The notes under the pieces are model-generated. The model searched no databases and was not told where the DNA came from. It was given only the letters and a program-made list of their open reading frames with translations. This document shows positions 16,686 through 30,507 of a stretch of 34,695 nucleotides of DNA, piece by piece (position 1 is the stretch's first letter; every line of letters starts with the position of its first letter). The position numbers were made by a program, and so were the translations under genes. Origin of the DNA: Bacillota bacterium (GTDB lineage: Bacteria > Bacillota > Clostridia > Peptostreptococcales > Anaerovoracaceae); NCBI GenBank assembly GCA_017431785.1, contig JAFRKJ010000036.1:1-34695 (forward strand), in the 5' to 3' direction.

Positions 16686-16762
16686 GCGCCATTAGCTCAA
16701 TTGGATAGAGTCGCGCACTACGAATGCGAAGGTTGGGGGTTCGAGTCCCTCATGGCGCGCCA
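16686..16762 (+). tRNA. tRNA-Arg (anticodon ACG)
   Basis: 77 nt including an encoded CCA. Acceptor GCGCCAT pairs with ATGGCGC, followed by discriminator G. The D arm is GCTC/GAGT, the anticodon loop CTACGAA with ACG at 16720-16722, and the T arm GGGGG-TTCGAGT-CCCTC. The ACG wobble A is normally deaminated to inosine to read CGU, CGC and CGA. The top pair of the anticodon stem (G27-A43) appears mismatched. The remaining stems are sound. It is a single-gene unit with its own promoter and terminator. Confidence 0.95.
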
Positions 16763-19073: not shown

Positions 19074-19589
19074 CTAGCCTTTGATACTATCGAAACTGAA
19101 ATTCGGATCAGCGAACTCGATGGCCTCCTTGCCGGAAATGTGATCGATTTCAATTTCAAATGCGCCCATCCATGCGATTCTCTTTTCGAACATCTCATGA
19201 ATGCCTTCTTCAAGACCTGGTGAGTACTTCTCAACCAAATAGTCTGCAATCTTATGCTTCTCTGCAACATCTTCCACAATTCTAGCGCGCCCAAAGATAA
19301 TGACGCTCCTGAAATAAGTAGTATACTCTTCCGGTACGACCTGATCGGTTTCGATGATTGTCAGACATACCTTATCGTGTTTCTTCATGGAATCATATTT
19401 GTGTCCGCTCGGCATACCATGGAAGTAAATTTTGTTGTTTCTGTAGGCGAAGCTGATCGGCACACCGTATGGATAGTCGCCGTCACCGAGCACGGCCAGC
19501 ACTCCTGATGTCGCCTTGTTGATAATCTCGTCACATCTTTCTTTTGAGAGAATCTGCTTCTTGTTTCTGGATACTTCTCTGAACTCCAT
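19074..19589 (-). CDS. Pyridoxamine 5'-phosphate oxidase-like flavoprotein (NimA/PPOX family)
   Basis: Encodes 171 residues. The split-barrel flavin-binding fold shows the usual 'GVLAVLGDGDYPYGVPISFA' strand pair, IYFHGMPSGHKYD, KVCLTII and the later VIIFGRARIVED. These features match the NimA-like branch, whose members include 5-nitroimidazole reductases, but most members are of unknown role, so resistance should not be assumed. Start ATG 19589 has AAAGGAG upstream. It is the last gene of the operon, 23 bases after the amidohydrolase, and is followed by a strong terminator. Confidence 0.8.
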   Translation of the reverse strand: MEFREVSRNKKQILSKERCDEIINKATSGVLAVLGDGDYPYGVPISFAYRNNKIYFHGMPSGHKYDSMKKHDKVCLTIIETDQVVPEEYTTYFRSVIIFGRARIVEDVAEKHKIADYLVEKYSPGLEEGIHEMFEKRIAWMGAFEIEIDHISGKEAIEFADPNFSFDSIKG

Positions 19590-19612: not shown

Positions 19613-21235
19613 CTATGCTTGATATGTGATCTCACCATCGACTATGGTTAAAACCACCTTGGTGTCTTTGATTTCTTCTTCCGGTCTTGCAAACAGGTTC
19701 CTGTCCAGCACGATCACGTCTGCCAGTTTACCCGGTTCTAAAGTACCGAGTTCATCTGCTCTGCCGTAAGCCTTTGCAGATCCAAGGGTATTTGCCGACA
19801 GCGCTTCCGCCAGCGTCAGCTTCTCCCCATTGTCAGCGCCTGCGATGGAACCATCATAATTTCTCCTTGCCACGCCCGCATAGATACCCGGGAACTGGTT
19901 ATACTGAACAACCGGGAAGTCTGTCCCAAAGGCAAGCGTAGCCCCTGTATCAACAATAGACCGGAACGGCCACTCATAACGGCAGCGTTCTTCTCCAATA
20001 CGGATCAGCTTCTCGTTGTTTTCCTGCGGCAGGTGTTCGCCCTGCATGGAAGCGATAACATCCAGCTCCACGAACCTTGGAATATCAGCCGGATCTGCGC
20101 TTTCAATATGCTCAATCGTATTCGGCAATCCGTGTCTTCCGTTTGCCTTGATCGATTCTTCAAAAGCATCCAGAGCCATCCTGACTGCACCGTCCCCAAT
20201 ACAATGCAGTCTTACCGGAAGACCGACACGGTTTGCTTCTATGACACCTGCATTAAGAGCATCCTGCTCTATAAGCGGGCATCCGTCCCCGCAGGTCGAC
20301 GGGTTGTCTTCATATGGCGCAAGCAGCAGTGCCGTATAGGTTGAAGTAACGCCATCCAGGAATCCCTTGAGACCATTGAGGCGGAATGTTGGTGAGCAGA
20401 ACTCCTTCTGCCATTCCTTCGCAGTATCAAAGTTTTTCATTCCTTTGAATTTCGTATAGAGATGTACACGGGTCGTCAGTTTTCCCTGTTCGCTCAGTGC
20501 CTGGAAGACTTTATGGCGCTTGTAATACATGTCTTCATATCCGTCTGCGCTCATTTCGCTGATGGAGGTAACGCCCTGAGAAGCGAGTCCTTTCATAAAA
20601 CCTTCGATGATTTCTACGATCTGCTCCTCCGGAAAATCATATAGCTTCTGCCACGCAAGCTCCAGTGCGGCAGGTTCAAAGGCCAGACCATTCAGTTCGC
20701 TATCTTCCGTCAGCCCCATATGGCCTCCGTCAAAGGTGCTCTCTGGTGTATATCCTGCTTCCTCCAAAGCCTTCGTATTCATCCAAATGGTGTGGCAATC
20801 CGCGCAAATCATATACACTGGTCTGTCCGGAACGATTGCATCCAGAGAGTCTTTCGTCGGCAGCGGCGCATCATTCCATGTTGCAGGGAACCAACCGAAA
20901 CCGCGGACTCTCGGAAACTCAGGATGTGCTTCCGCGAACTCTTTGATCATTGCAACAGCCTCTTCTTCTGTTGTGGATGCAGTAATGTCTACCATGTACC
21001 TGCTGTCAGCAACTGCTCCCCACCATAGGTGCTCATGACCGTCGATCAAGCCCGGCATAATCATATTATCGCCGTACTCCAGCACTTTTGTATCCGGTCC
21101 TTCAAATTTCTTCAGTTCTTCAGCAGAACCCACCGCCAAAATCTTTCCTTCTGCAATGGCAACGCCGCCTGCAAAAGGTTTATCCTGCAATCCTGTGAAC
21201 ACAGCATTGCTCTTGATAATAGTATTTACAAACAT
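19613..21235 (-). CDS. YtcJ-type metal-dependent amidohydrolase (Amidohydro_3)
   Basis: Encodes 540 residues. The family begins with a composite beta domain (MFVNTIIKSNAVFTG, IAEGKILAVGS), then the metal-binding PGLIDGHEHLW (HxH), FGWFPATWNDAPLPTKDSLDAI, DCHTIWMNTKAL, HCIGDGAVRMALDAFE, NTIEHIE, and the terminal Asp in FGTDFPVVQ. It closes with the dihydroorotase-like LGTLEPGKLADVIVLDRN. Some relatives are N-substituted formamide deformylases, while most have unknown substrates. Start ATG 21235 has AGGAGAA upstream. It follows the DUF6485-like gene by 10 bases in the urease transcript, so its substrate may be an amide related to that pathway. Confidence 0.85.
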   Translation of the reverse strand: MFVNTIIKSNAVFTGLQDKPFAGGVAIAEGKILAVGSAEELKKFEGPDTKVLEYGDNMIMPGLIDGHEHLWWGAVADSRYMVDITASTTEEEAVAMIKEFAEAHPEFPRVRGFGWFPATWNDAPLPTKDSLDAIVPDRPVYMICADCHTIWMNTKALEEAGYTPESTFDGGHMGLTEDSELNGLAFEPAALELAWQKLYDFPEEQIVEIIEGFMKGLASQGVTSISEMSADGYEDMYYKRHKVFQALSEQGKLTTRVHLYTKFKGMKNFDTAKEWQKEFCSPTFRLNGLKGFLDGVTSTYTALLLAPYEDNPSTCGDGCPLIEQDALNAGVIEANRVGLPVRLHCIGDGAVRMALDAFEESIKANGRHGLPNTIEHIESADPADIPRFVELDVIASMQGEHLPQENNEKLIRIGEERCRYEWPFRSIVDTGATLAFGTDFPVVQYNQFPGIYAGVARRNYDGSIAGADNGEKLTLAEALSANTLGSAKAYGRADELGTLEPGKLADVIVLDRNLFARPEEEIKDTKVVLTIVDGEITYQA

Positions 21236-21493: not shown

Positions 21494-22348
21494 CTATTCA
21501 CTGCACCCTGAGAACTCCTTGCGGAGCCTGAGTGCAGGTTTATTCAATATGCTCTTCCTACAGACGTCCCAGACTGCCTGCATCATATCTCTCATTTCTA
21601 TGATCCCATCCCCTAAAAATCTTATGACCATTAAATCGGGCCGCACATTGCCTGCTGCCAACCGCACCTTTTCCGTGCTCAATTCACTGACTCTGTTTTT
21701 CAGCTGCGGATCCATCGCATCGGCATATACGTACAGGGAGCCATTCGTCTGATATCCATCCAAAAGCCCTGTCCTCAGAAGATTCTCTTCGCCGGGCTGC
21801 AGGCTGCAATTATCGTATAGCGCCAGTTCTCCATCGATGAAGATTCTCGTTCTTGACTTGTATCTTGTGTAATCAAATTTCTCACCGCTTGCAACGCGTC
21901 CTGCCGTCACCATATCCGCTGCAAAAAGCACCGCGCCCTTTTCGACTCTGAATTCGTTTTCCTGATAAACCGTCGATTCTGCGAAGGGCACATTGTGCTC
22001 CGGCAGATACTCCAGCACCCCGCCGCTATGCACATAAAGTCTGTTCCACACTTTGGCGCAGTCATCGTCCATTCTGTAGTATTTGTTGTTTCCAGGCGTT
22101 GTGAATATGGCGTCCGTCCCTGTTTCACTTTCAATTTCCGTGAGCAGCCTGTCATGCTGCAGAATCCCTCCGGCGGGATTCAGCGAATAGACGATTGCTG
22201 TTCCGTCGACATCATAGTAATGCGCCTTCAGAAGCTGGAGCGGAATCTTGTGAAACTGCTTTGCCATATATGTCCTTCCCTCTGCATTTCTGCGGAAGAC
22301 AATGGATATTTGCCCATTCGGCTGTTCCTTCAGTTCGTCCCAGATCAT
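21494..22348 (-). CDS. ureD: Urease accessory protein UreD (UreH)
   Basis: Encodes 284 residues. UreD forms a scaffold with UreF and UreG that delivers nickel to apo-urease. Recognisable are the early [13 protein letters not shown] motif (usual 'xxGGxxxGDxL'), [10 protein letters not shown] (cf. 'TTPAATKVYR'), the [22 protein letters not shown] segment (cf. 'LEWLPQETIxF'), and [24 protein letters not shown]. It is more diverged than typical UreD but collinear. ATG 22348 overlaps the end of ureG as ATGA, so translation is coupled. Confidence 0.88.
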
Positions 22349-22959
22349 TTCATGTCCTCAAACAGCATATCTTCTTTGATCCAACGAATCACTTCATCAA
22401 GGCCGATGCCTTTATACAAATCGGTGAAAACGTACGGCTTATCCCCGCGCTGCTTTTTTGTATCCCGGTCCATGACTTCAAGGCTTGCGTGGACGTATTC
22501 CGCGATGTCGATCTTGTTAATGACAAGCAGGTCTGATTTGTTGATTCCCGGTCCGCCTTTGCGCGGAATCTTCTCACCTTCACCTACGTCGATGACAAAA
22601 ATCAGACCGTCGACCAGTTCCGGACTGAAAGTCGCCGCGAGATTATCACCGCCGCTCTCAACAAACAGCAGATCCAGATTATCGAATCTTGATGTAAGCT
22701 CATCGATGGCGTCCAGATTCATGGAGATATCCTCTCGAACTGCGGTATGCGGGCATCCGCCCGTCTCCACGCCAAGGATTCTCTCTGCGGGAAGCGCCTC
22801 CGCCCTCGTCAGGATCAGTGCATCCTCCAATGTGAAGATATCGTTTGTCACTACAGCGATTTCATATTCATCCCGCAACGCTTTGCACAATTTTTCTATC
22901 AAGGCGGTCTTGCCTGATCCAACCGGACCGCCAACGCCTATTCTCACAGGTTTTCTCAT
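22345..22959 (-). CDS. ureG: Urease accessory GTPase UreG
   Basis: Encodes 204 residues, standard length. A SIMIBI-class GTPase that binds nickel and drives urease activation. The P-loop [18 protein letters not shown] is at residues 7-24. The metal-binding CPH of [16 protein letters not shown] (near 68-76) is intact. [17 protein letters not shown], the [19 protein letters not shown] switch region and the NKxD guanine motif (VINKIDI) are present. This is the best conserved gene of the cluster. It lies 16 bases after ureF. Confidence 0.97.
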
Positions 22960-22975: not shown

Positions 22976-23701
22976 CTAGCTCATATACAGCCGCACCGGC
23001 AGGTTTTCATGCCGCAGGCTTGCAATATCTATCCCCGGGCAGAAGTTCGTCACATGCTCCACATCTGTCTCCATGCAAGTGCGTGTGACTTCTTCCATGT
23101 AAGCATCCATTTCGAACAGCACCTGCTGCGCTTCCACATTGCCGAGAGGAATCAGTTTCAGCGCACTCTGCGTCAGCGTATTCGCCGTACTGAAAACATA
23201 GGCGGCAAGCGCCTGTTCCCTATCCAGCTTGAGAATGCTGCAGACGCATCCGTAGAGCACCGGATAGCTGATGTTCATTCCTCCGAATACTTCGTGCAAA
23301 GGCAGCATCGCCTCTTCACCTGCGATCGGTTCGATCACTCTGCCGAATGCTCTGCCCATACGGAGCCCTGCTTCCCTGCTTTCCTTCGTCACTTTCACAG
23401 CATTGGATAGCTGTTCCAGATTTCTTAACTGAGCAGCAATAACGTCAGATTCTTTCTCTCCTGCAGCATGCAGCACCTTCATGATTTCCATCAGCTCATA
23501 GGCTCTGCAGATGATTGGTCCTTCGCAATTGCCGATGCTGGTCATCAGATACACTTCAAGAAATTCACCAAAGGAACCGGCATCTCTGACGGTCCCTTCC
23601 GCTACATAAGTTTCCAAACCCCAAGACTGGCTGAAGCCACCTGTCGGGAATGTTCCTCCATTCAGTTGCAGTAACCGCAGCAGCTGCTTCTCACTATTCA
23701 T
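22976..23701 (-). CDS. ureF: Urease accessory protein UreF
   Basis: Encodes 241 residues, all helical. The family opening 'LLRLLQLNGGTFPTGGFSQS' with GLETYV, then RNLEQLSNAVKVTKESREAGLRMGRA (cf. 'RxxSxxMGxxLL') and the C-terminal IPLGNVEAQQVL (cf. 'iPLGQtxgQril') are all present. UreF links UreD and UreG in the activation complex. I chose ATG 23701 because the UreF domain starts there and GGAGAAA lies upstream. The longer frame from 23800 only reads the His-rich tail of ureE out of frame. It overlaps the end of ureE by 8 bases. Confidence 0.93.
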   Translation of the reverse strand: MNSEKQLLRLLQLNGGTFPTGGFSQSWGLETYVAEGTVRDAGSFGEFLEVYLMTSIGNCEGPIICRAYELMEIMKVLHAAGEKESDVIAAQLRNLEQLSNAVKVTKESREAGLRMGRAFGRVIEPIAGEEAMLPLHEVFGGMNISYPVLYGCVCSILKLDREQALAAYVFSTANTLTQSALKLIPLGNVEAQQVLFEMDAYMEEVTRTCMETDVEHVTNFCPGIDIASLRHENLPVRLYMS

Positions 23702-24224
23702 CGCTTTCTCCGTGGCTGTGTTCGTGTGCGTGACTTTGATCATGCGCATGATCGTGATGGTGGCCATGATGATGGTGATGTCCCTCATGCTGGGAAACAT
23801 TCGCCCTCACTCCGTCGATTGGACGGCTGTCCCTTTCGCATGCGACGCCCAGTTTTTGCATCATGGATTCCAGAATGGCATCGTAAGGAGTGACAATGCA
23901 GTCCTCCTGAATGAACGCCGCCTGGTGCATGTTGCCGATATTGTAGGCGGCACGCGCCCACTGCATCTGTCCTTCCGGCCGGATGACCAATGCATCTTCC
24001 GGTTCCAGTTCGATTACGACAACCCTGTTATCGTCAGCGCATATCACGTCTCCGGATTCCAGTACATGCCCGTGGGGCAGAGACAGCCCAAATACCTCAC
24101 CAGCTTCAGATGTAAGCTTCTGATGCGGTTTTGAGAGTCTCTCCCTGTCCAGCACAACCTTGTCCACTCTTCTGCCTTCCAGTGGATAGTCTTTTATATT
24201 TCCTGCAATGCTCTCAATGATCAT
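23694..24224 (-). CDS. ureE: Urease nickel metallochaperone UreE with long His-rich tail
   Basis: Encodes 176 residues. The N-terminal peptide-binding half has KVVLDRERLSKPHQKLTSEAG and GLSLPHGHVLESGDVI. The metal-binding half has MQWARAAYNIGNMHQ (cf. 'LARAAYHLGNRHxP') and the IVTPYDAILESMMQKLG helix. The C-terminus (about 147-176) is packed with roughly 15 histidines mixed with Asp and Glu, a nickel store as in K. aerogenes UreE. The conserved dimer-interface His of GNMH is present. It lies 18 bases after ureC. Confidence 0.95.
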   Translation of the reverse strand: MIIESIAGNIKDYPLEGRRVDKVVLDRERLSKPHQKLTSEAGEVFGLSLPHGHVLESGDVICADDNRVVVIELEPEDALVIRPEGQMQWARAAYNIGNMHQAAFIQEDCIVTPYDAILESMMQKLGVACERDSRPIDGVRANVSQHEGHHHHHGHHHDHAHDQSHAHEHSHGESDE

Positions 24225-24242: not shown

Positions 24243-25967
24243 CTATCTGAAGTAATACCTCTGGCACAGGCAGACCTCATCCACCGGTTCACAAGTGATA
24301 TGCTCACCGTCGACGTAGACTTTGTATGTCTCCGGATCAACTGTGATGTTCGGCAGATAGTCGTTTCTGACCATATCTTTCTTCGTAAGATGTCTCGTAT
24401 TCTTTACCGGCAGCAGCTTGCCTTTAGCACCGTGCAGTCTGTCTTCCAGTCCGCTGTCGATGGCTGCCTGCGTGACAAAGATCCTGTTCAGTTTTCTGTT
24501 GTTTCCGATGCCGTGCCCCGCGTACTGCAGTCTGTAGAGCATCGGCTCCGCAACTTCGATGCAGGCGTTGGTGTCTCCGGATGCGGAATAAACGACCTGG
24601 CCGCACTTGAAGATCAGCCAAGGCTTCGCACCGAAGAAGCAAGGATCATATACACAGAAGTCCGCCAATCTGCCAGGCTGCAGTGATCCGATGTATTCAT
24701 CGATACCGTAGACCTTAGCAGCATTGACTGTGTACTTGGCAATGTATCTCAGGATTCTCTCATTATCGTTGTCACCGGTTTCCTCAGGGAGACGTCCTCT
24801 CTGCTTTTTCATCTTTGACGCCATCTGCCAAGTTCTGAGAATAGTCTCGCCTACGCGTCCCATACCCTGTGAGTCGGATCCATGGATTGAAATCGCGCCC
24901 ATGTCGTGGAGCACGTCTTCTGCAGCAATCGTCTCACCTCTTACACGGGATCCTGCAAAGGCGACATCCTCCGGCAGCGTCGGATTCAGATGGTGCACCG
25001 CCATGATCATATCCAGATGCTCCGCAATCGTATTTACTGTATACGGGTTGGTGCAGTTGGTGGATGACGGGATGACGTTCGGCTCTCCGACGACTTTGAG
25101 CAAATCCGGAGCATGTCCGCCGCCTGCTCCCTCTGAATGATAGGTATGTATGGTTCTTCCACCAAAGGCATCGATCGTGTCCTCAACGAAACCTGATTCG
25201 TTCAAAGTATCTGTATGAATCTGCACCTGGAAGTCATATTTATCCGCAACATCCAAACAGCATCTGATGACTTCCGGTGTGGCCGCGAAGTCTTCATGGA
25301 TCTTCATTCCGATGGATCCTTCAAGCGCCTGCTCTTCGATAGCTTCCGGTAAGCTGGAACATCCTCTTCCCAAAAATCCTGCGTTAACAGGAAGCTCTTC
25401 ATGGGCTTCGATCATCATGTGCAGGTGTTCTCTGCCGTTGGTTTCTACACTTGTTGTCTTAGCACCGTGACCGCCGCCGATCATGGTGGTGATACCGTTG
25501 GCCAAAGCCTCCCATGCCTGTCCCGGACTCTCGAAGTGGATGTGCACATCAATACCGCCCGGCGTAACGATAAGTCCCTCTGCGCAGACTTCTTCTGTTG
25601 CAACGCCGACGACAAGTCCCGGCGTGATATCCATTGTGTCTGGATTTCCTGCTTTACCGATTCCAACAACTACGCCGTCACGGATACCGATGTCGCATTT
25701 CACGATGCCGATGGTTGGATCGATCAGCGTTGCGTTTGTAACGACAACATCCAACACATCAGTCCCTTCACTCGGAAGTCCTGCCATCTGTCCCATACCG
25801 TCACGGTCTGTCTTGCCGCTGCCCCAGACCATCTCGTCCCCGTAATGACCTGCGCAGTAATCCTTTTCGATTTCCGCAATCAGTCCAGTGTCGCCAAGAT
25901 GCAGCTTGTCACCAACTGTTGGACCGTACAGTTCGAAATATTCTTCGTGTGTCAGTTTAACTGCCAT
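24243..25967 (-). CDS. ureC: Urease alpha subunit (UreC), diverged active-site shell
   Basis: Encodes 574 residues. In classical ureases this subunit holds the two-nickel site that hydrolyses urea to ammonia and carbamate. All metal ligands are visible: H142 and H144 (HIHF), carbamylated K222 (GMKIHEDF), H251, H277 (YHSEGAGGGHAPD) and D365 (GSDSQ). The general acid His (H325) and the H224 partner are kept too. Three substrate-side features differ from the norm. The loop usually reading GTxATTCTPGPW after GGG is replaced by an unrelated, slightly shorter stretch (residues 166-182). The flap Cys before HHL is Val324. SSDSQA reads GSDSQG. ATG 25967 is one base past the ureB stop. Most likely it is a urease, but a changed substrate is possible. 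Confidence 0.93.
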   Translation of the reverse strand: MAVKLTHEEYFELYGPTVGDKLHLGDTGLIAEIEKDYCAGHYGDEMVWGSGKTDRDGMGQMAGLPSEGTDVLDVVVTNATLIDPTIGIVKCDIGIRDGVVVGIGKAGNPDTMDITPGLVVGVATEEVCAEGLIVTPGGIDVHIHFESPGQAWEALANGITTMIGGGHGAKTTSVETNGREHLHMMIEAHEELPVNAGFLGRGCSSLPEAIEEQALEGSIGMKIHEDFAATPEVIRCCLDVADKYDFQVQIHTDTLNESGFVEDTIDAFGGRTIHTYHSEGAGGGHAPDLLKVVGEPNVIPSSTNCTNPYTVNTIAEHLDMIMAVHHLNPTLPEDVAFAGSRVRGETIAAEDVLHDMGAISIHGSDSQGMGRVGETILRTWQMASKMKKQRGRLPEETGDNDNERILRYIAKYTVNAAKVYGIDEYIGSLQPGRLADFCVYDPCFFGAKPWLIFKCGQVVYSASGDTNACIEVAEPMLYRLQYAGHGIGNNRKLNRIFVTQAAIDSGLEDRLHGAKGKLLPVKNTRHLTKKDMVRNDYLPNITVDPETYKVYVDGEHITCEPVDEVCLCQRYYFR

Positions 25968-25968
25968 C

Positions 25969-26343
25969 CTACTCACCACCTTCCAGTTCCGCCTTCATAG
26001 CGGCTATTGCTCTTTTCTTTACTTCCGGATCATAGATGTTGCCCATGGTCCATCCCAGAAATCCGTAGAGGTTACCTTCCCCTGCATAAGTGGTCAGCGC
26101 GACTTCCTTTTCCTCGCCCGGTTCAAATCTGATCGCCGAACCGGCAGGGATATCGAGACGCAGGCCGAATGCTTTTTCGCGGTCGAATTTCAGTGCCTTG
26201 TTTGCCTCGAAGAAATGATAGTGGGAGCACACCTGAATGGTCCGGTCCCCGGTGTTGGTTACCATGATTTTTGTCACAGGTTTTCCTTCATTGATGATGA
26301 CAGGATCCTCTGCGAAAATGATATCGCCGACTTTATATGTCAT
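25969..26343 (-). CDS. ureB: Urease beta subunit (UreB)
   Basis: Encodes 124 residues. The small beta-rich subunit shows the signature VTNTGDRTIQVCSHYHFFEANKAL, FDREKAFGLRLDIPAGSAIRFEPGE and YGFLGW (normally YGFRGLVNG). It packs against UreC in the trimer. A C-terminal helix rich in Lys, Ala and Glu (VKKRAIAAMKAELEGGE) extends the usual chain. ATG 26343 is preferred over GTG 26352 because GGAGAG lies at a suitable distance. It lies 18 bases after ureA. Confidence 0.95.
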   Translation of the reverse strand: MTYKVGDIIFAEDPVIINEGKPVTKIMVTNTGDRTIQVCSHYHFFEANKALKFDREKAFGLRLDIPAGSAIRFEPGEEKEVALTTYAGEGNLYGFLGWTMGNIYDPEVKKRAIAAMKAELEGGE

Positions 26344-26361: not shown

Positions 26362-26721
26362 TTAATAATTCATGGACAGCAGTTCGCTGACCGGCAGTGT
26401 TTCTTCTTTTGTGTCCAGACGGATAGGATCGTGAACTGAAACCAGCTTATTGCCGTCCGGGAACTGTACTTCAAACATGATGATCGGAAGCATTGCTTCA
26501 ATGCCATCCATGCAATCCTCCTTAGAGAGAATCTGTGTTCCGATTTCCATGAGCTCTGTGATGTTGTTTGTGCCGGCTCTGCCTCTTTCAAGCAGTTCGT
26601 CCATGATGATGGCAGATGCCTCGATGTAGTTGAGCTTAACGCCCCGTTTCCATCTCCGCCTTGAAATCTCAGCGACACCGAACAGCAGCACTCTTTCCTG
26701 TTCATGAGTTGTCAGTTTCAT
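26362..26721 (-). CDS. ureA: Urease gamma subunit (UreA)
   Basis: Encodes 119 residues. The family pattern is clear: MKLTTHEQERVLLF, GVKLNYIEASAIIMDELLERGRAG (cf. 'KLNyPEAvAlIsdaileGARdG'), then MDGIEAMLPIIMFEVQFPDGNKLVSVHDPI. UreA normally ends at the HNPI motif near residue 100, and here about 19 further residues follow. ATG 26721 has AAAGGAGGGAG upstream, and its first 20 bases overlap the end of the EamA gene. The longer frame to 26895 is rejected. Confidence 0.95.
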   Translation of the reverse strand: MKLTTHEQERVLLFGVAEISRRRWKRGVKLNYIEASAIIMDELLERGRAGTNNITELMEIGTQILSKEDCMDGIEAMLPIIMFEVQFPDGNKLVSVHDPIRLDTKEETLPVSELLSMNY

Positions 26722-27631
26722 AAGTCTCCCTCCTTTGTCTTTCCGGTAACTGCGTAATGATGGTTGCCGCGAACATGAGAGCACATCCGATAAGCTCCCG
26801 CGGCGACATGGTTTCCTGTATAATGACCCAGGCTCCTGTGACAGCAAATACTCCCTCCAGCGACATGAGCAGGCTCGCCACAGTTGGATCGACATACTGC
26901 TGTGCGTATGCAGCCAGTGTGAATCCTACTGCACTGGAGAGAACGCCTGCATAGAGCATCGGCGGCAATTCTCCTGCAAAAGCCGCCCAGGTTGGTTCTT
27001 CAAATAGAAACATGCAGATTGGTGCGAGGATACCTCCCACTGCAAACTGCAATGTGCTCAGCAGCATCGGATCAGCTTTCTCCACGTAGTGATCCATGAA
27101 CAGAATCTGCAGCGCGAAGAACACGGTCCCGATGAGCAGGATGATATCTCCTTTTGCCAGCGCCATGGTTTCGCCAGGCTGTACTGCCAGGAACCAGAGT
27201 CCTACAATGGCAAGCAGTACGCAAAACCATAAAATCTTCCTTGGCTTTTGCCCGATGAACAGTGCAAAAATCGGAACTTCGATAATGTATAATGCCGTTT
27301 CAAATCCCGTTTTGCCTGCGCTGGTCGTCATGATGCCGAGCTGCATGCATGATATTCCGATGAACAGGCACAATCCGCACAGAAGTCCTCCGACAAGAAG
27401 ACTCTTTTTATCTGTGATCGGAGGCGGCCACGCCTCTTTGCCTTTTCCCCGGTTGATCATCCATCTGATCAGGACAACAACTCCCATAGCCAATGCGGCA
27501 GAACACATTCTTCCTGTATTGAATGTGAATGCGTCGACCGCATCGACGCTCGTCCTCTGGGCTACAAAGGAGCAGCCCCAGAGCATTGTCGTGATCAGAA
27601 GCAGTATTACTCCTATAAATTGCTTACTCAT
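26702..27631 (-). CDS. EamA/DMT-family transporter at head of urease operon
   Basis: Encodes 309 residues with about ten hydrophobic segments in two EamA repeats. The first begins with IGVILLLITTMLWGCSFVAQRTS and the second around DIILLIGTVFFALQILFMDHYVE. The end of the second repeat has the usual AYAQQYVDPTVASLLMSLEGVFAV. Members export or import amino acids, nucleobases and other metabolites, so the substrate cannot be named. Its last 20 bases overlap ureA, which suggests coupled translation and a functional link with the urease-like enzyme. It starts 30 bases after the sigma-54 activator gene. AGGA is upstream of ATG 27631. Confidence 0.88.
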   Translation of the reverse strand: MSKQFIGVILLLITTMLWGCSFVAQRTSVDAVDAFTFNTGRMCSAALAMGVVVLIRWMINRGKGKEAWPPPITDKKSLLVGGLLCGLCLFIGISCMQLGIMTTSAGKTGFETALYIIEVPIFALFIGQKPRKILWFCVLLAIVGLWFLAVQPGETMALAKGDIILLIGTVFFALQILFMDHYVEKADPMLLSTLQFAVGGILAPICMFLFEEPTWAAFAGELPPMLYAGVLSSAVGFTLAAYAQQYVDPTVASLLMSLEGVFAVTGAWVIIQETMSPRELIGCALMFAATIITQLPERQRRETYETDNS

Positions 27632-27661: not shown

Positions 27662-29023
27662 TTACTCTTTGATATTCAGTCGTTTCAGTTTCTGATAAAG
27701 CAGTGGTCGTGCGATTCCCAGATAGTTTGCCGCTCTGGTCTTATTGCCGTTGAACCGTTCCAGCACCTTCATGATGACTTCACGTTCTGCATCATTCTTC
27801 GCCTGTTCAATGATATTTCCCCTCGCGGCAAGAGCGTCCAAATCGACTTTCTTCCCCGCATGGGTCGAATCAAGATCCGTCAGGTGAATCGTGTCATCCT
27901 TGGAAAACGCCATTGCGCTTTCGATAACATTACGGAGCTCTCTGATGTTGCCTTTCCAATAACGGTTCTTCAGCTCCGTCAGTGTCTCATCATCCACTCC
28001 GACTTTGGAGAGACCATTTTCCACATTCAGTTCTTCAATGATCGACTGAATGATTTCTTCCATGTCTTCCGGATGCTCACGAAGAGGCGGCGTATCGATT
28101 TCTATGACATCCAATCTGTAGAATAGATCCTCCCTGAATCTTCCCCTCCGGACAAGTTCCTTCAGATCCTCATTGGTCGCCGTAATGATACGGACATCCA
28201 CTGGAATCGGCTCCTGTCCCCCGATTCTGTCGATTTCTTTTTCCTGCAGCGCACGCAGAAGCTTCGGCTGCATCGCCATCGGCAGATGATTGATCTCATC
28301 GATGAACAGCGTCCCTTTGTCCGCCAGTTCAAACTTACCCTTTTTCCCCACGTCAAGAGCTCCTGTGAAAGAGCCTTTTTCATATCCAAACAGTTCCTCC
28401 TCAATCAGGTTCTCCGGTATGGAGGCTGCATTGATCTTAATAAACTTCTCCTGTCTGCGGTTGCTCAGATTGTGTATTGCATGGGCAACCAGTTCCTTGC
28501 CTGTGCCCGTTTCACCACTGATTATCACAGTGGAATTTGTCGCTGCTGTAGAGATGATCTTCCTCCTGAGTTCCTGCATAACCAGAGACTTTCCGAGGAT
28601 GTCGTTGATTGTATAACGGGTTCTGTCAAAAGTAGTCAGATGCCCCGTCTGTCCGTTCAGCACACCGTCGAGAAAGCCCCTGTAATCGTCTGCAAGACCA
28701 TAGAGGACCTCTGAATTCTGCACGACGTCATACTCCCCGATACCGATTCTCGTTCCGTTTTCATCGAACACCGGGAAGTTGACTGAAATACCGATTCCAA
28801 GATATGAGTTATAGAAGACGACGACTGGTTTCTCTATATTCATATTCTTGATCATAGTTGTCTCCGGAAAGTATTCGCGAATCTCTTTTCCGATAGTAGA
28901 GTCTTTGTCGACACCGAAATAATCCGCGCACTGCTGACTCATGTACAGAGTCTTTCCCTCTGTATCAATGATGACAAGGCCCGGTACAGATTCAAACAAA
29001 GGCTCCATTTCTGCAAAATTCAT
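27662..29023 (-). CDS. Sigma-54-dependent transcriptional activator (PAS-AAA-Fis)
   Basis: Encodes 453 residues. An N-terminal PAS sensor domain (about 5-110, VIIDTEGKTLYMSQQCADYFG) precedes an AAA+ domain with Walker A GETGTGKE, the sigma-54 contact loop GSFTGA (a common variant of GAFTGA), Walker B TLFIDEINHL and the arginine-finger region RGRFREDLFYRLDV. The C-terminal Fis-type HTH reads FNGNKTRAANYLGIARPLLYQKLKRL. It would open sigma-54 promoters in response to a PAS ligand. ATG 29023 is chosen over GTG 29029. The gene starts directly behind the terminator of the antiporter gene. The obvious target is the sigma-54 promoter at 30493-30507. Confidence 0.93.
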   Translation of the reverse strand: MNFAEMEPLFESVPGLVIIDTEGKTLYMSQQCADYFGVDKDSTIGKEIREYFPETTMIKNMNIEKPVVVFYNSYLGIGISVNFPVFDENGTRIGIGEYDVVQNSEVLYGLADDYRGFLDGVLNGQTGHLTTFDRTRYTINDILGKSLVMQELRRKIISTAATNSTVIISGETGTGKELVAHAIHNLSNRRQEKFIKINAASIPENLIEEELFGYEKGSFTGALDVGKKGKFELADKGTLFIDEINHLPMAMQPKLLRALQEKEIDRIGGQEPIPVDVRIITATNEDLKELVRRGRFREDLFYRLDVIEIDTPPLREHPEDMEEIIQSIIEELNVENGLSKVGVDDETLTELKNRYWKGNIRELRNVIESAMAFSKDDTIHLTDLDSTHAGKKVDLDALAARGNIIEQAKNDAEREVIMKVLERFNGNKTRAANYLGIARPLLYQKLKRLNIKE

Positions 29024-29034
29024 AGACACACCTC

Positions 29035-29085: not shown

Positions 29086-30435
29086 CTAGCACATAATGAT
29101 TCCTACGATCAGGAATGCAATGATTGCTACTAATGTAGGTAACACGATAATTGGCAGAGCATTCTTAGCATACTCTGCATTGTTGATTCCAGTTGCTGCA
29201 CAAGCCAGCGTAGCCGCGTCGCCATAGAAGCAAGCATGGCTTCCGAATGCGCCTGCGGAAATGATAGCTGCAGAAATCAGAATCGGATCTGCACCAACTG
29301 CGTTACCGAGCGGTACCAGAATAGGGAACGCGATTGCCGCAGTGCCCCAGAATGATCCTGTACACATTGCGATAAATGCACAGATAACGAATGATGCCAT
29401 AGGCAGAATCTTCGCGCTGAGGATTGGTTCAAATACACCGATGACGAACTCAGTCAGTCCAAGCTGTGTATTCGCTTCCTGCAGAACGAATGCAGTGATA
29501 ACGATTGCTGTTACGACGACCATGCTCTCCCATCCTTTCCAGCAAGTATCGAAGAACTTGCCCGGAGTCATGATCTTAGCCGGCAGGTACATAAACATGC
29601 ACACTAATGCGCCGATGGTCATACCAATCAGGATATCGTTGACCACAAGTGTAACGACGATTGCGGCGCCGAGCGGTACGATGAAGAACCATGGGCTGGT
29701 CGGCTTGATATCATATCCTTCCAGTTCCTCATTGGTCTCATGGTAGTAAGGTGAGTACGGATCTCCGTTTTCTGCTCTGATAGCAGCCTGCTTCATAGGT
29801 CCCCAAAGAGGGATGATACCGAATCCGATGAGCGGAACGATGATTACTGCTGCGAGCGGATAGAACATGAACGGGATCGCATGGATGTAAGCTGAAAGGC
29901 CACTTCCATTATCAACAACGCCCAGTTCTTCCATCTGGGAGATCATGAAGATTCCCCAGGATGACATCGGGATCAGTACACAGACTGCTGCGCCAGTAGA
30001 GTTGATCGTGTAGGCAAGCTGCTCTCTAGGGATCTTGTTCTTGTCACTGATGTTTCTCATTGCAGTACCAACCCCCAGATTGTTGAGGTAGTCGTCGATG
30101 AATACTGCAATACCCATCAGCCAGGTAACAAGGATCGTAAGCCCCTTCGTTCGCGCCACCTTGGCGCCGAGCTCAGCGAAGCCTAGTGCACTTCCTGATT
30201 CTTCAAGCAGTTTTGCTACGATACCGAACATACCGAATACAAGGATGTACCAGGCATTGTCCGCAACGATCGTTGTAAATCCGTTGAGAATCTCAGTGAA
30301 GAAGTGCGCTTTGTAGACAAGTACATAACCAACGACAGCGCCGAGAATAAGCGGTTCAACCGTACGCTTAGTCAAAAGCGCTACCACGATTACGACTGCT
30401 ACAGGAAGTAAACTTATAATACCGTAAGTTTCCAT
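29086..30435 (-). CDS. NhaC-family Na+/H+ or substrate/Na+ antiporter
   Basis: Encodes 449 residues with about 10-12 membrane segments. The NhaC-type features include MGIAVFIDDYLNNLGVGTAM (half-helix with paired acidic residues), an STGAAVCVLIPMSSWG segment, and the C-terminal CTGSFWGTAAIAFPILVPLG and GAFGSHACFYGDAATLA. Family members exchange Na+ for H+ or carry amino acids and other organic ions. In Clostridia they often sit with amino-acid catabolic genes. I chose ATG 30435 because GGGAGGAGG lies upstream, whereas the frame from 30531 would span the promoter. A perfect sigma-54 promoter lies 58 bases upstream. Confidence 0.88.
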   Translation of the reverse strand: METYGIISLLPVAVVIVVALLTKRTVEPLILGAVVGYVLVYKAHFFTEILNGFTTIVADNAWYILVFGMFGIVAKLLEESGSALGFAELGAKVARTKGLTILVTWLMGIAVFIDDYLNNLGVGTAMRNISDKNKIPREQLAYTINSTGAAVCVLIPMSSWGIFMISQMEELGVVDNGSGLSAYIHAIPFMFYPLAAVIIVPLIGFGIIPLWGPMKQAAIRAENGDPYSPYYHETNEELEGYDIKPTSPWFFIVPLGAAIVVTLVVNDILIGMTIGALVCMFMYLPAKIMTPGKFFDTCWKGWESMVVVTAIVITAFVLQEANTQLGLTEFVIGVFEPILSAKILPMASFVICAFIAMCTGSFWGTAAIAFPILVPLGNAVGADPILISAAIISAGAFGSHACFYGDAATLACAATGINNAEYAKNALPIIVLPTLVAIIAFLIVGIIMC

Positions 30436-30492
30436 TTGTCCTCCTCCCTGATAAGCAAAAAGATATAACTGATACTGATGTAACGTATTAAA

Positions 30493-30507
30493 GCAATAAA
30501 CGTGCCA
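30493..30507 (-). promoter_or_regulatory. Sigma-54 (-24/-12) promoter of the NhaC-type gene
   Basis: Minus strand TGGCAC, five bases, TTGC (followed by T), an exact match to the TGGCAC-N5-TTGC consensus. It is 58 bases before the antiporter ATG. A sigma-54 activator gene lies next downstream. Confidence 0.88.

Follow-up and report, generated by a model that had tools for sequence, protein, structure and literature searches.

A shortened substrate loop marks a deep branch of urease-like alpha subunits that may act on substituted ureas or small amides

Introduction

Does a gene that looks like ureC in a Bacillota bacterium encode the alpha subunit of an ordinary urease, or that of a related nickel enzyme with another substrate? 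The question is raised by a stretch of 34,695 nucleotides (family Anaerovoracaceae; GenBank assembly GCA_017431785.1, contig JAFRKJ010000036.1), which we analysed at its full length and call the window. The original prediction, made from the sequence of this stretch, was a urease-like alpha subunit that keeps its nickel ligands in an altered substrate shell, and it left a choice between an unusual urease clade and an enzyme derived from urease whose substrate is some other small amide.

Results

An intact ureC frame with an altered substrate pocket

The ureC-type frame runs on the minus strand from an ATG to a stop codon (25967-24243) with no inner stop, and its 574-aa translation matched PF00449 and Amidohydro_1 in profile searches. 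It also passed the NCBI equivalog model for the urease alpha subunit, TIGR01792, with 778.7 bits against a cut-off of 680. When the protein was aligned with the K. aerogenes chain, H142, H144, K222, H251, H277 and D365 fell on the nickel ligands H134, H136, K217, H246, H272 and D360, H325 on the catalytic H320, and H224 on H219. These eight window residues (H142, H144, K222, H224, H251, H277, H325 and D365) were invariant in a 30-row alignment. The open frame, the alignment and the surrounding operon thus bear out the predicted alpha subunit with its nickel ligands retained and its substrate shell altered.

The loop around Ala167 had been described as replaced. The usual GTxATTCTPG motif is indeed absent from the window protein, which reads GGHGAKTTSVETNGREHL at 25475-25422, but the loop is also three residues shorter than in K. 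aerogenes and not merely replaced, so that no single window residue can be named as 'the Ala167'; alignment restored neither the missing length nor an ATTCTPGPW loop. The PGPW end of the loop is variable in ordinary ureases too (the H. pylori chain reads TPGRRN), and the NGR stretch was seen only in the window species and one 98% relative, the 75-87% relatives carrying PGP. Alignment also placed valine at the mobile-flap Cys319 and glycine at Ala363, both as predicted (Table 1). The flap cysteine of urease is not essential. The residue after the catalytic flap histidine, at the position of K. aerogenes His321, is His in the window and Gly in the close relatives L024, L025, L026 and L028.

A frame error in the loop was ruled out, as the 98% relative has the same loop and the 75-87% relatives have one of the same length. 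A single odd or decayed gene was likewise ruled out by the open frame and by the presence of the same features in 53 proteins. Searches with PF00449 and TIGR01792 found no second full UreC in the genome of the window organism (G000; 2.72 Mb, 81% complete), where the next matches were a partial one of 23.8 bits to PF00449 (cut-off 23) and one of 32 bits to TIGR01792. The same genome holds, at about 113.8-132.9 kb of its contig C83, a cluster of five amidohydrolase-like open frames of 554-588 aa.

The operon and its flanking genes

The gene order ureA-ureB-ureC-ureE-ureF-ureG-ureD, all on the minus strand, makes up a complete ureABCEFGD operon in the window (Table 1). Upstream of ureA and on the same strand lie genes for an EamA transporter, a sigma-54 activator and an NhaC-like transporter; in related loci, the gene directly before ureA encodes an Amidohydro_3 enzyme (L066) or a transporter (L024). 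The Amidohydro_3 gene downstream of ureD also has counterparts, as homologues adjoin short-loop ureC in related genomes (10 of 42 short-loop and 0 of 48 full-loop loci in the comparison described below).

Table 1. Features of the ure region, in window coordinates
Feature	Position	Strand	Basis or remark
Amidohydro_3 enzyme, downstream of ureD	19613..21235	-	PF07969
ureD	21494..22348	-	PF01774
ureG GTPase	22345..22959	-	TIGR00101, 325 bits (cut-off 204)
ureF	22976..23701	-	PF01730; inner ATG start inferred
ureE, His-rich tail	23694..24224	-	PF02814/PF05194
ureC-type alpha subunit, short-loop Gly363 type, 574 aa	24243..25967	-	Open frame and family models
Gly368, position of K. aerogenes Ala363	24864..24866	-	Alignment
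Val324, flap position of K. aerogenes Cys319	24996..24998	-	Alignment
Shortened substrate loop around Ala167, 3 residues fewer than K. aerogenes	25422..25475	-	Alignment
ureB (beta subunit)	25969..26343	-	PF00699, TIGR00192; inner ATG start inferred
ureA (gamma subunit)	26362..26721	-	PF00547, TIGR00193; inner ATG start inferred from family-match start
EamA-family transporter, between regulator and ureA	26702..27631	-	PF00892; also in 98% relative L023
Sigma-54-dependent activator (PAS-AAA-Fis)	27662..29029	-	PF00158/PF02954
NhaC-like transporter	29086..30435	-	PF03553; inner ATG start inferred
Sigma-54 -24/-12 site, TGGCACGTTTATTGCT	30492..30507	-	Exact match; 57 bp before inferred NhaC-like gene start

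Allowing up to one mismatch, the window contains no other -24/-12 match; shuffled sequences averaged 1.4, and 75 of 100 shuffles had one or more. The sequence match is therefore weak evidence by itself, and its position is what counts. Sites with up to one mismatch preceded a transporter, regulator or Amidohydro_3 gene by 39-65 bp, counted to the matched or inferred gene start, in 9 of the 18 distinct related loci that were scanned (the window, L023, L024, L027, L028, L029, L030, L031 and L164; strands checked). The window cluster has the look of a catabolic operon that is inducible and includes an importer.

In the window organism's genome, 81% complete, UrtB was the urea transporter searched for, and its best match reached 42 bits against a cut-off of 250. 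The same genome gave no match to the MTTB methyltransferase family that would have indicated a methylamine link. An Rfam scan of the window detected nothing except a tRNA gene (16686-16759, plus strand). A flavin protein encoded at 19074-19589 resembles the NimIJ and NimABCDEF families, scoring well below their cut-offs.

Loop length and residue 363 change together

We collected UreC proteins from 49 genomes of the window genus, 296 of its family and 398 of its phylum, from 59 loci of a named genome collection, from ten selected genomes and from 14 regions picked from plasmid matches. Distinct proteins of at least 500 aa, the K. aerogenes chain included, formed a 113-protein alignment; exact duplicates, L001 and rows below 500 aa (including L041, L070, L075, L096, L099, L127, L136 and L138) were left out. 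The nickel ligands (HHKHHD), His219, His320 and Arg336 were kept in all 113 proteins. Loop length and residue 363 agreed in 112 of them: every full-loop protein had Ala363 and Cys319 (59/59 each), whereas 53 of the 54 proteins with a loop three to four residues shorter had Gly363. The exception is a haloarchaeal protein (L146, 2989-4692), which has a different loop deletion and keeps ATTCTPG, Ala363 and Cys319.

Cys319 does not define the short-loop branch, because 14 of the 53 short-loop Gly363 proteins retain it. A separate clade sharing all three changes had been envisaged; the short loop and Gly363 are indeed common to it, but the Cys319 change is not constant. The most discriminating positions were Ala363, the deleted 164-166 and 167-170. 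At the Cys170 position, about 72% of 39 representative short-loop rows have Glu or Asp, a figure that depends on the alignment.

Short-loop genes were found in Bacillota, Pseudomonadota and mycobacteria. In the window family, UreC matches (E up to 1e-50) occurred in 24 of the 296 sampled genomes, 20 with the short-loop type, four with the full-loop type and none with both. The phylum sample gave 17 UreC-bearing genomes besides the window organism's own, one of them short-loop (G601, L116), and among Paenibacillaceae 72 of 104 genomes had a UreC match, all 29 newly read proteins (L203-L231) being full-loop with Ala363. L116 is a very divergent UreC, with 47% identity, the longest branch, the flap VHKLHP and a loop four residues short.

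One deep branch separates the two types

Loop columns 156-180 and positions 319 and 363 were removed before tree building. In a quick tree of 74 representatives, the full-loop group required one change (SH-aLRT 93) and the short-loop group two, because the very long row L116 was placed next to the full-loop rows and the haloarchaeal row fell within the rest. A careful tree was then computed from 72 rows, the two rows with the longest branches (L116 and L132) being dropped. In this tree, a single branch with support 100/99 split 37 short-loop from 34 full-loop rows, and the split was present in 100% of 200 bootstrap trees. The window UreC lies on the opposite side of this branch from the canonical full-loop ureases.

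The trees and the 113-protein alignment therefore support the unusual clade that had been suggested, as a deep branch whose members have the shortened loop and Gly363 in common. The suggested urease-derived enzyme for another small amide fared differently in its two parts: neighbouring genes and coexistence with full-loop urease, presented below, speak for another substrate, but the word 'derived' finds no support in an unrooted tree, which has no outgroup and so does not give the older state, short or full loop.

Amide hydrolases and regulators adjoin many short-loop genes

For a comparison of gene neighbourhoods, 42 short-loop and 48 full-loop loci were hand-picked from 179 with a UreC match, omitting duplicates and mostly short stretches. 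Flanks were unequal, both reaching at least 5 kb in 38 of the 42 and 44 of the 48 loci. The following counts are a contrast and not a test, since the marker proteins were drawn from short-loop loci, which biases the screen, and the loci are related; Fisher values are not probabilities here either, because many full-loop loci are near-identical Lachnospiraceae.

At least one amide or Amidohydro_3 hydrolase lay within 9.5 kb of ureC in 23 of 42 short-loop loci versus 1 of 48 full-loop loci. Similarly, sigma-54 activators (12/42 versus 0/48), ANTAR regulators (9/42 versus 0/48) and NhaC-like transporters (9/42 versus 1/48) were found mostly or only at short-loop loci, methylamine-type markers were few (3/42 versus 0/48), and Urt-type permeases adjoined both kinds (14/42 and 15/48). 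The screen detected no amide hydrolase at 19 of the 42 short-loop loci, including L154 of Mycolicibacterium wolinskyi and L071 of Mycobacterium BK086, which counts against an amide substrate.

A nearby UreG was detected for 30 of 42 short-loop loci and for 46 of 48 with the full loop, and a nearby UreD for 35 of 42 and 42 of 48, so some short-loop members would keep accessory genes elsewhere or in diverged form. Both were undetected in the stretch at seven short-loop loci (L064, L065, L067, L080, L155, L160 and L161) and two full-loop loci.

Some genomes hold both types

Of ten genomes selected for closer inspection, five carry UreC of both types: Paenibacillus validus, Alkalihalobacillus sp. 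BA299, Paenibacillus darwinianus, Mycobacterium sp. AZCC_0083 and M. wolinskyi. Neither P. darwinianus gene (L070, L188) is uninterrupted in the assembly; the full copy has the ATTCTPG loop, and the short copy was assigned by Gly363 and 64% identity because its loop is not covered. Each of the five genomes has an amide hydrolase within 9.5 kb of a short-loop locus and none at the full-loop locus in the same screen; M. wolinskyi and P. darwinianus have shorter full-loop stretches (L171; L188, 13.6 kb) than the other paired genomes.

The hydrolases beside the short-loop loci were an aliphatic amidase in both Paenibacillus species, three PF01425 amidases and one CN_hydrolase in Alkalihalobacillus, and two PF01425-type matches in each mycobacterium; the 9.5-kb screen found none at L154, the second short-loop copy of M. 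wolinskyi. In P. validus, the AmiE-type amidase scored 710 bits against a curated cut-off of 427.

Two different short-loop UreC proteins apiece were seen in six to seven genomes (G036, G107, G722, G721, G727, G726 and G724), and also in M. wolinskyi. The pairs are L004/L098, L082/L097, L120/L130, L123/L132, L124/L131, L126/L133 and L121/L137.

Proteobacterial clusters and methylamine-type genes

Short-loop clusters on proteobacterial plasmids vary in content: they draw on AmiC-like and ANTAR genes, on transporters of the Urt-like or branched-chain type, and on genes for aliphatic amidases or nitrilase-family proteins. Next to the clusters of Acinetobacter NCu2D-2 and Shinella sumterensis are genes whose annotations name sarcosine oxidase subunits, type III glutamine synthetase and glutamine amidotransferase, together with glxC/GXGXG, FMN-binding glutamate synthase, and purU or folD. 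By their annotations, these sets are apparent methylamine assimilation genes. Of 11 other plasmid records examined, 4 carried the glutamate-synthase homologue, which lay near ure genes only in the two Shinella; the mgsC homologue was absent from 7 of 11, which counts against a methylurea link. Genes for urate or allantoin breakdown, which yields plain urea, lie near two short-loop loci, in M. radiotolerans and Aminobacter SR38.

On the Enterobacter hormaechei plasmid pENT-576 (L147, 4809-16953), a short-loop ure cluster with a nitrilase-family gene and an ABC transporter sits between IS26 copies. Several Klebsiella and Enterobacter plasmids carry UreC genes 71% identical to the Aminobacter query L143.

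Discussion

On sequence grounds, the window UreC is a member of the UreC family that lies outside the full-loop urease branch. We favour the reading that it is the catalytic subunit of a nickel-dependent, urease-fold hydrolase that would act on a small N-substituted urea or amide, with a probability of about 0.55, because of the pairing of loop length with residue 363, the split by one branch, the neighbour contrast, the coexistence of both types and the sigma-54 sites. The wider proposal, that a large branch of genes now called urease in three or more phyla encodes a separate nickel enzyme whose substrates are small amides or N-substituted ureas, with N-methylurea as substrate of the methylotroph-linked members, is put forward tentatively, at just short of an even chance.

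Compared with canonical urease UreABC (K. aerogenes, S. pasteurii, H. pylori; EC 3.5.1.5), the short-loop branch has the same fold family, subunits and accessory genes, and the same nickel ligands, His219, His320 and Arg336. It differs in a loop three to four residues shorter, Gly for Ala363, the frequent loss of the flap Cys319 and mostly Glu or Asp for Cys170, and it has other neighbours and occupies the other side of the UreC tree. Haloarchaeal L146 has its deletion in the same place but otherwise keeps the canonical pocket residues listed above.

The two constant changes suggest how the pocket may differ. We take Ala167 and Ala363 of K. aerogenes to be Ala170 and Ala366 of S. pasteurii. 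In the S. pasteurii enzyme, the backbone carbonyls of these two residues are reported to hold the urea nitrogen bound at Ni(2), and a Ni(2) water touches the Ala366 side chain (PMC7433671). As these carbonyls hold the Ni(2) nitrogen, both constant short-loop changes fall at its site. The short loop and Gly363 may open this site and leave room for a larger amide or for a nitrogen that carries a substituent. The reaction would follow the urease mechanism, with a bridging hydroxide attacking the carbonyl and His320 helping the amine to leave. In the gut lineage, the sigma-54 activator may sense the substrate and turn on the NhaC-like importer and the ure operon, and the Amidohydro_3 enzyme would act alongside the nickel hydrolase.

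Short-amide operons of the amiE/amiC/amiR type with Urt-like genes offer the closest parallel in gene content: AmiE relatives, a Clp-like AAA protein, ANTAR regulators and Urt-like transporters are common to these operons and to the Paenibacillus and proteobacterial short-loop clusters. The amidases of those operons belong to the CN_hydrolase (nitrilase) family, and the short-loop clusters add a nickel amidohydrolase. A 2010 paper on SIMBAL reported that Bradyrhizobium has a second Urt-like transporter encoded next to amidases, and proposed that it carries an amide other than urea; the passages on this cluster do not mention a urease (PMC3098086). A rumen survey is reported to have found core ureC types outside the clusters of known ureases (PMC12130578). 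Among the open-access matches listed, as judged from titles and the starts of abstracts, we recognised no described short-loop or second-substrate urease.

N-methylurea is our guess at a substrate for one proteobacterial sub-branch only. It is suggested by the position of the changes, at the site of the leaving nitrogen, and by the methylamine-type genes beside the operon in two lineages. Most short-loop loci lack such genes, which counts against it. So does a metformin-degrading Aminobacter, which may or may not carry the gene and which reportedly failed to grow with dimethylurea or urea as its carbon source (PMC9699525). M. smegmatis, with two urease clusters, is reported to show low urease activity and no growth on urea as sole nitrogen source (PMC4222082).

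There is a real, if minority, chance that the window protein is an ordinary urease whose loop and flap have drifted, with urea as substrate and with neighbours that are other nitrogen-scavenging genes under shared control. The window operon is complete, its UreC passes the urease model, and the short-loop type, being the sole UreC in 20 of the 24 UreC-bearing genomes of the sampled family, may simply be their urease. Urt permeases adjoin both types, and the M. radiotolerans and Aminobacter SR38 copies lie beside urate or allantoin genes. Moreover, a chromosomal amidase/formamidase cluster with Urt-type transporters has been reported (PMC13209695), so that there can be other reasons for amide and Urt genes to occur together. 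However, the joint change of loop and residue 363 along one deep branch looks like more than drift, as does the neighbour contrast inside the five genomes with both types, and the UrtB match in the window organism's genome lies far below its cut-off.

It is unlikely that the substrate is a carbamoylated amino acid or a similar ureido acid instead of a neutral alkylurea or amide. The Aminobacter SR38 copy on pSR3 has a dihydropyrimidinase gene, gcvT and folate C1 genes upstream, and the copy on pSR1 has, likewise upstream, genes for an ArgE/DapE deacylase and allantoate amidohydrolase. Each of these neighbours comes from a single locus, however, and the acidic residue at the Cys170 position of most short-loop rows would disfavour an anionic substrate. 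Even less credible is a homologue that has lost all or nearly all hydrolase activity and is kept by inertia or for a scaffold role, for which the Brucella ure-2 operon, reported to be without measurable activity, although its UreC2 is said to group with Yersinia and Photorhabdus UreC, is a precedent (PMC2492869) and the loci lacking both UreG and UreD (7/42 versus 2/48) some encouragement, but against which stand the catalytic residues kept in 113 of 113 proteins, UreG or UreD beside 35 of 42 short-loop loci, and UreD, E, F and G all present in the window.

If the window UreC and its branch do act on N-substituted ureas or small amides, the presence of ureC would no longer equal the splitting of urea; as the curated urease model accepts the window protein, gene surveys of gut, rumen and soil may count such genes as ureolytic. 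The nickel urease scaffold would have a second, unrecognised class of natural substrates, and the two types would offer a natural comparison for substrate choice at the nickel site that bears on the specificity of urease inhibitors. Methylated ureas are reported as proposed end products of caffeine C-8 oxidation, and the branch would provide a candidate enzyme for the step that follows (PMC4408171).
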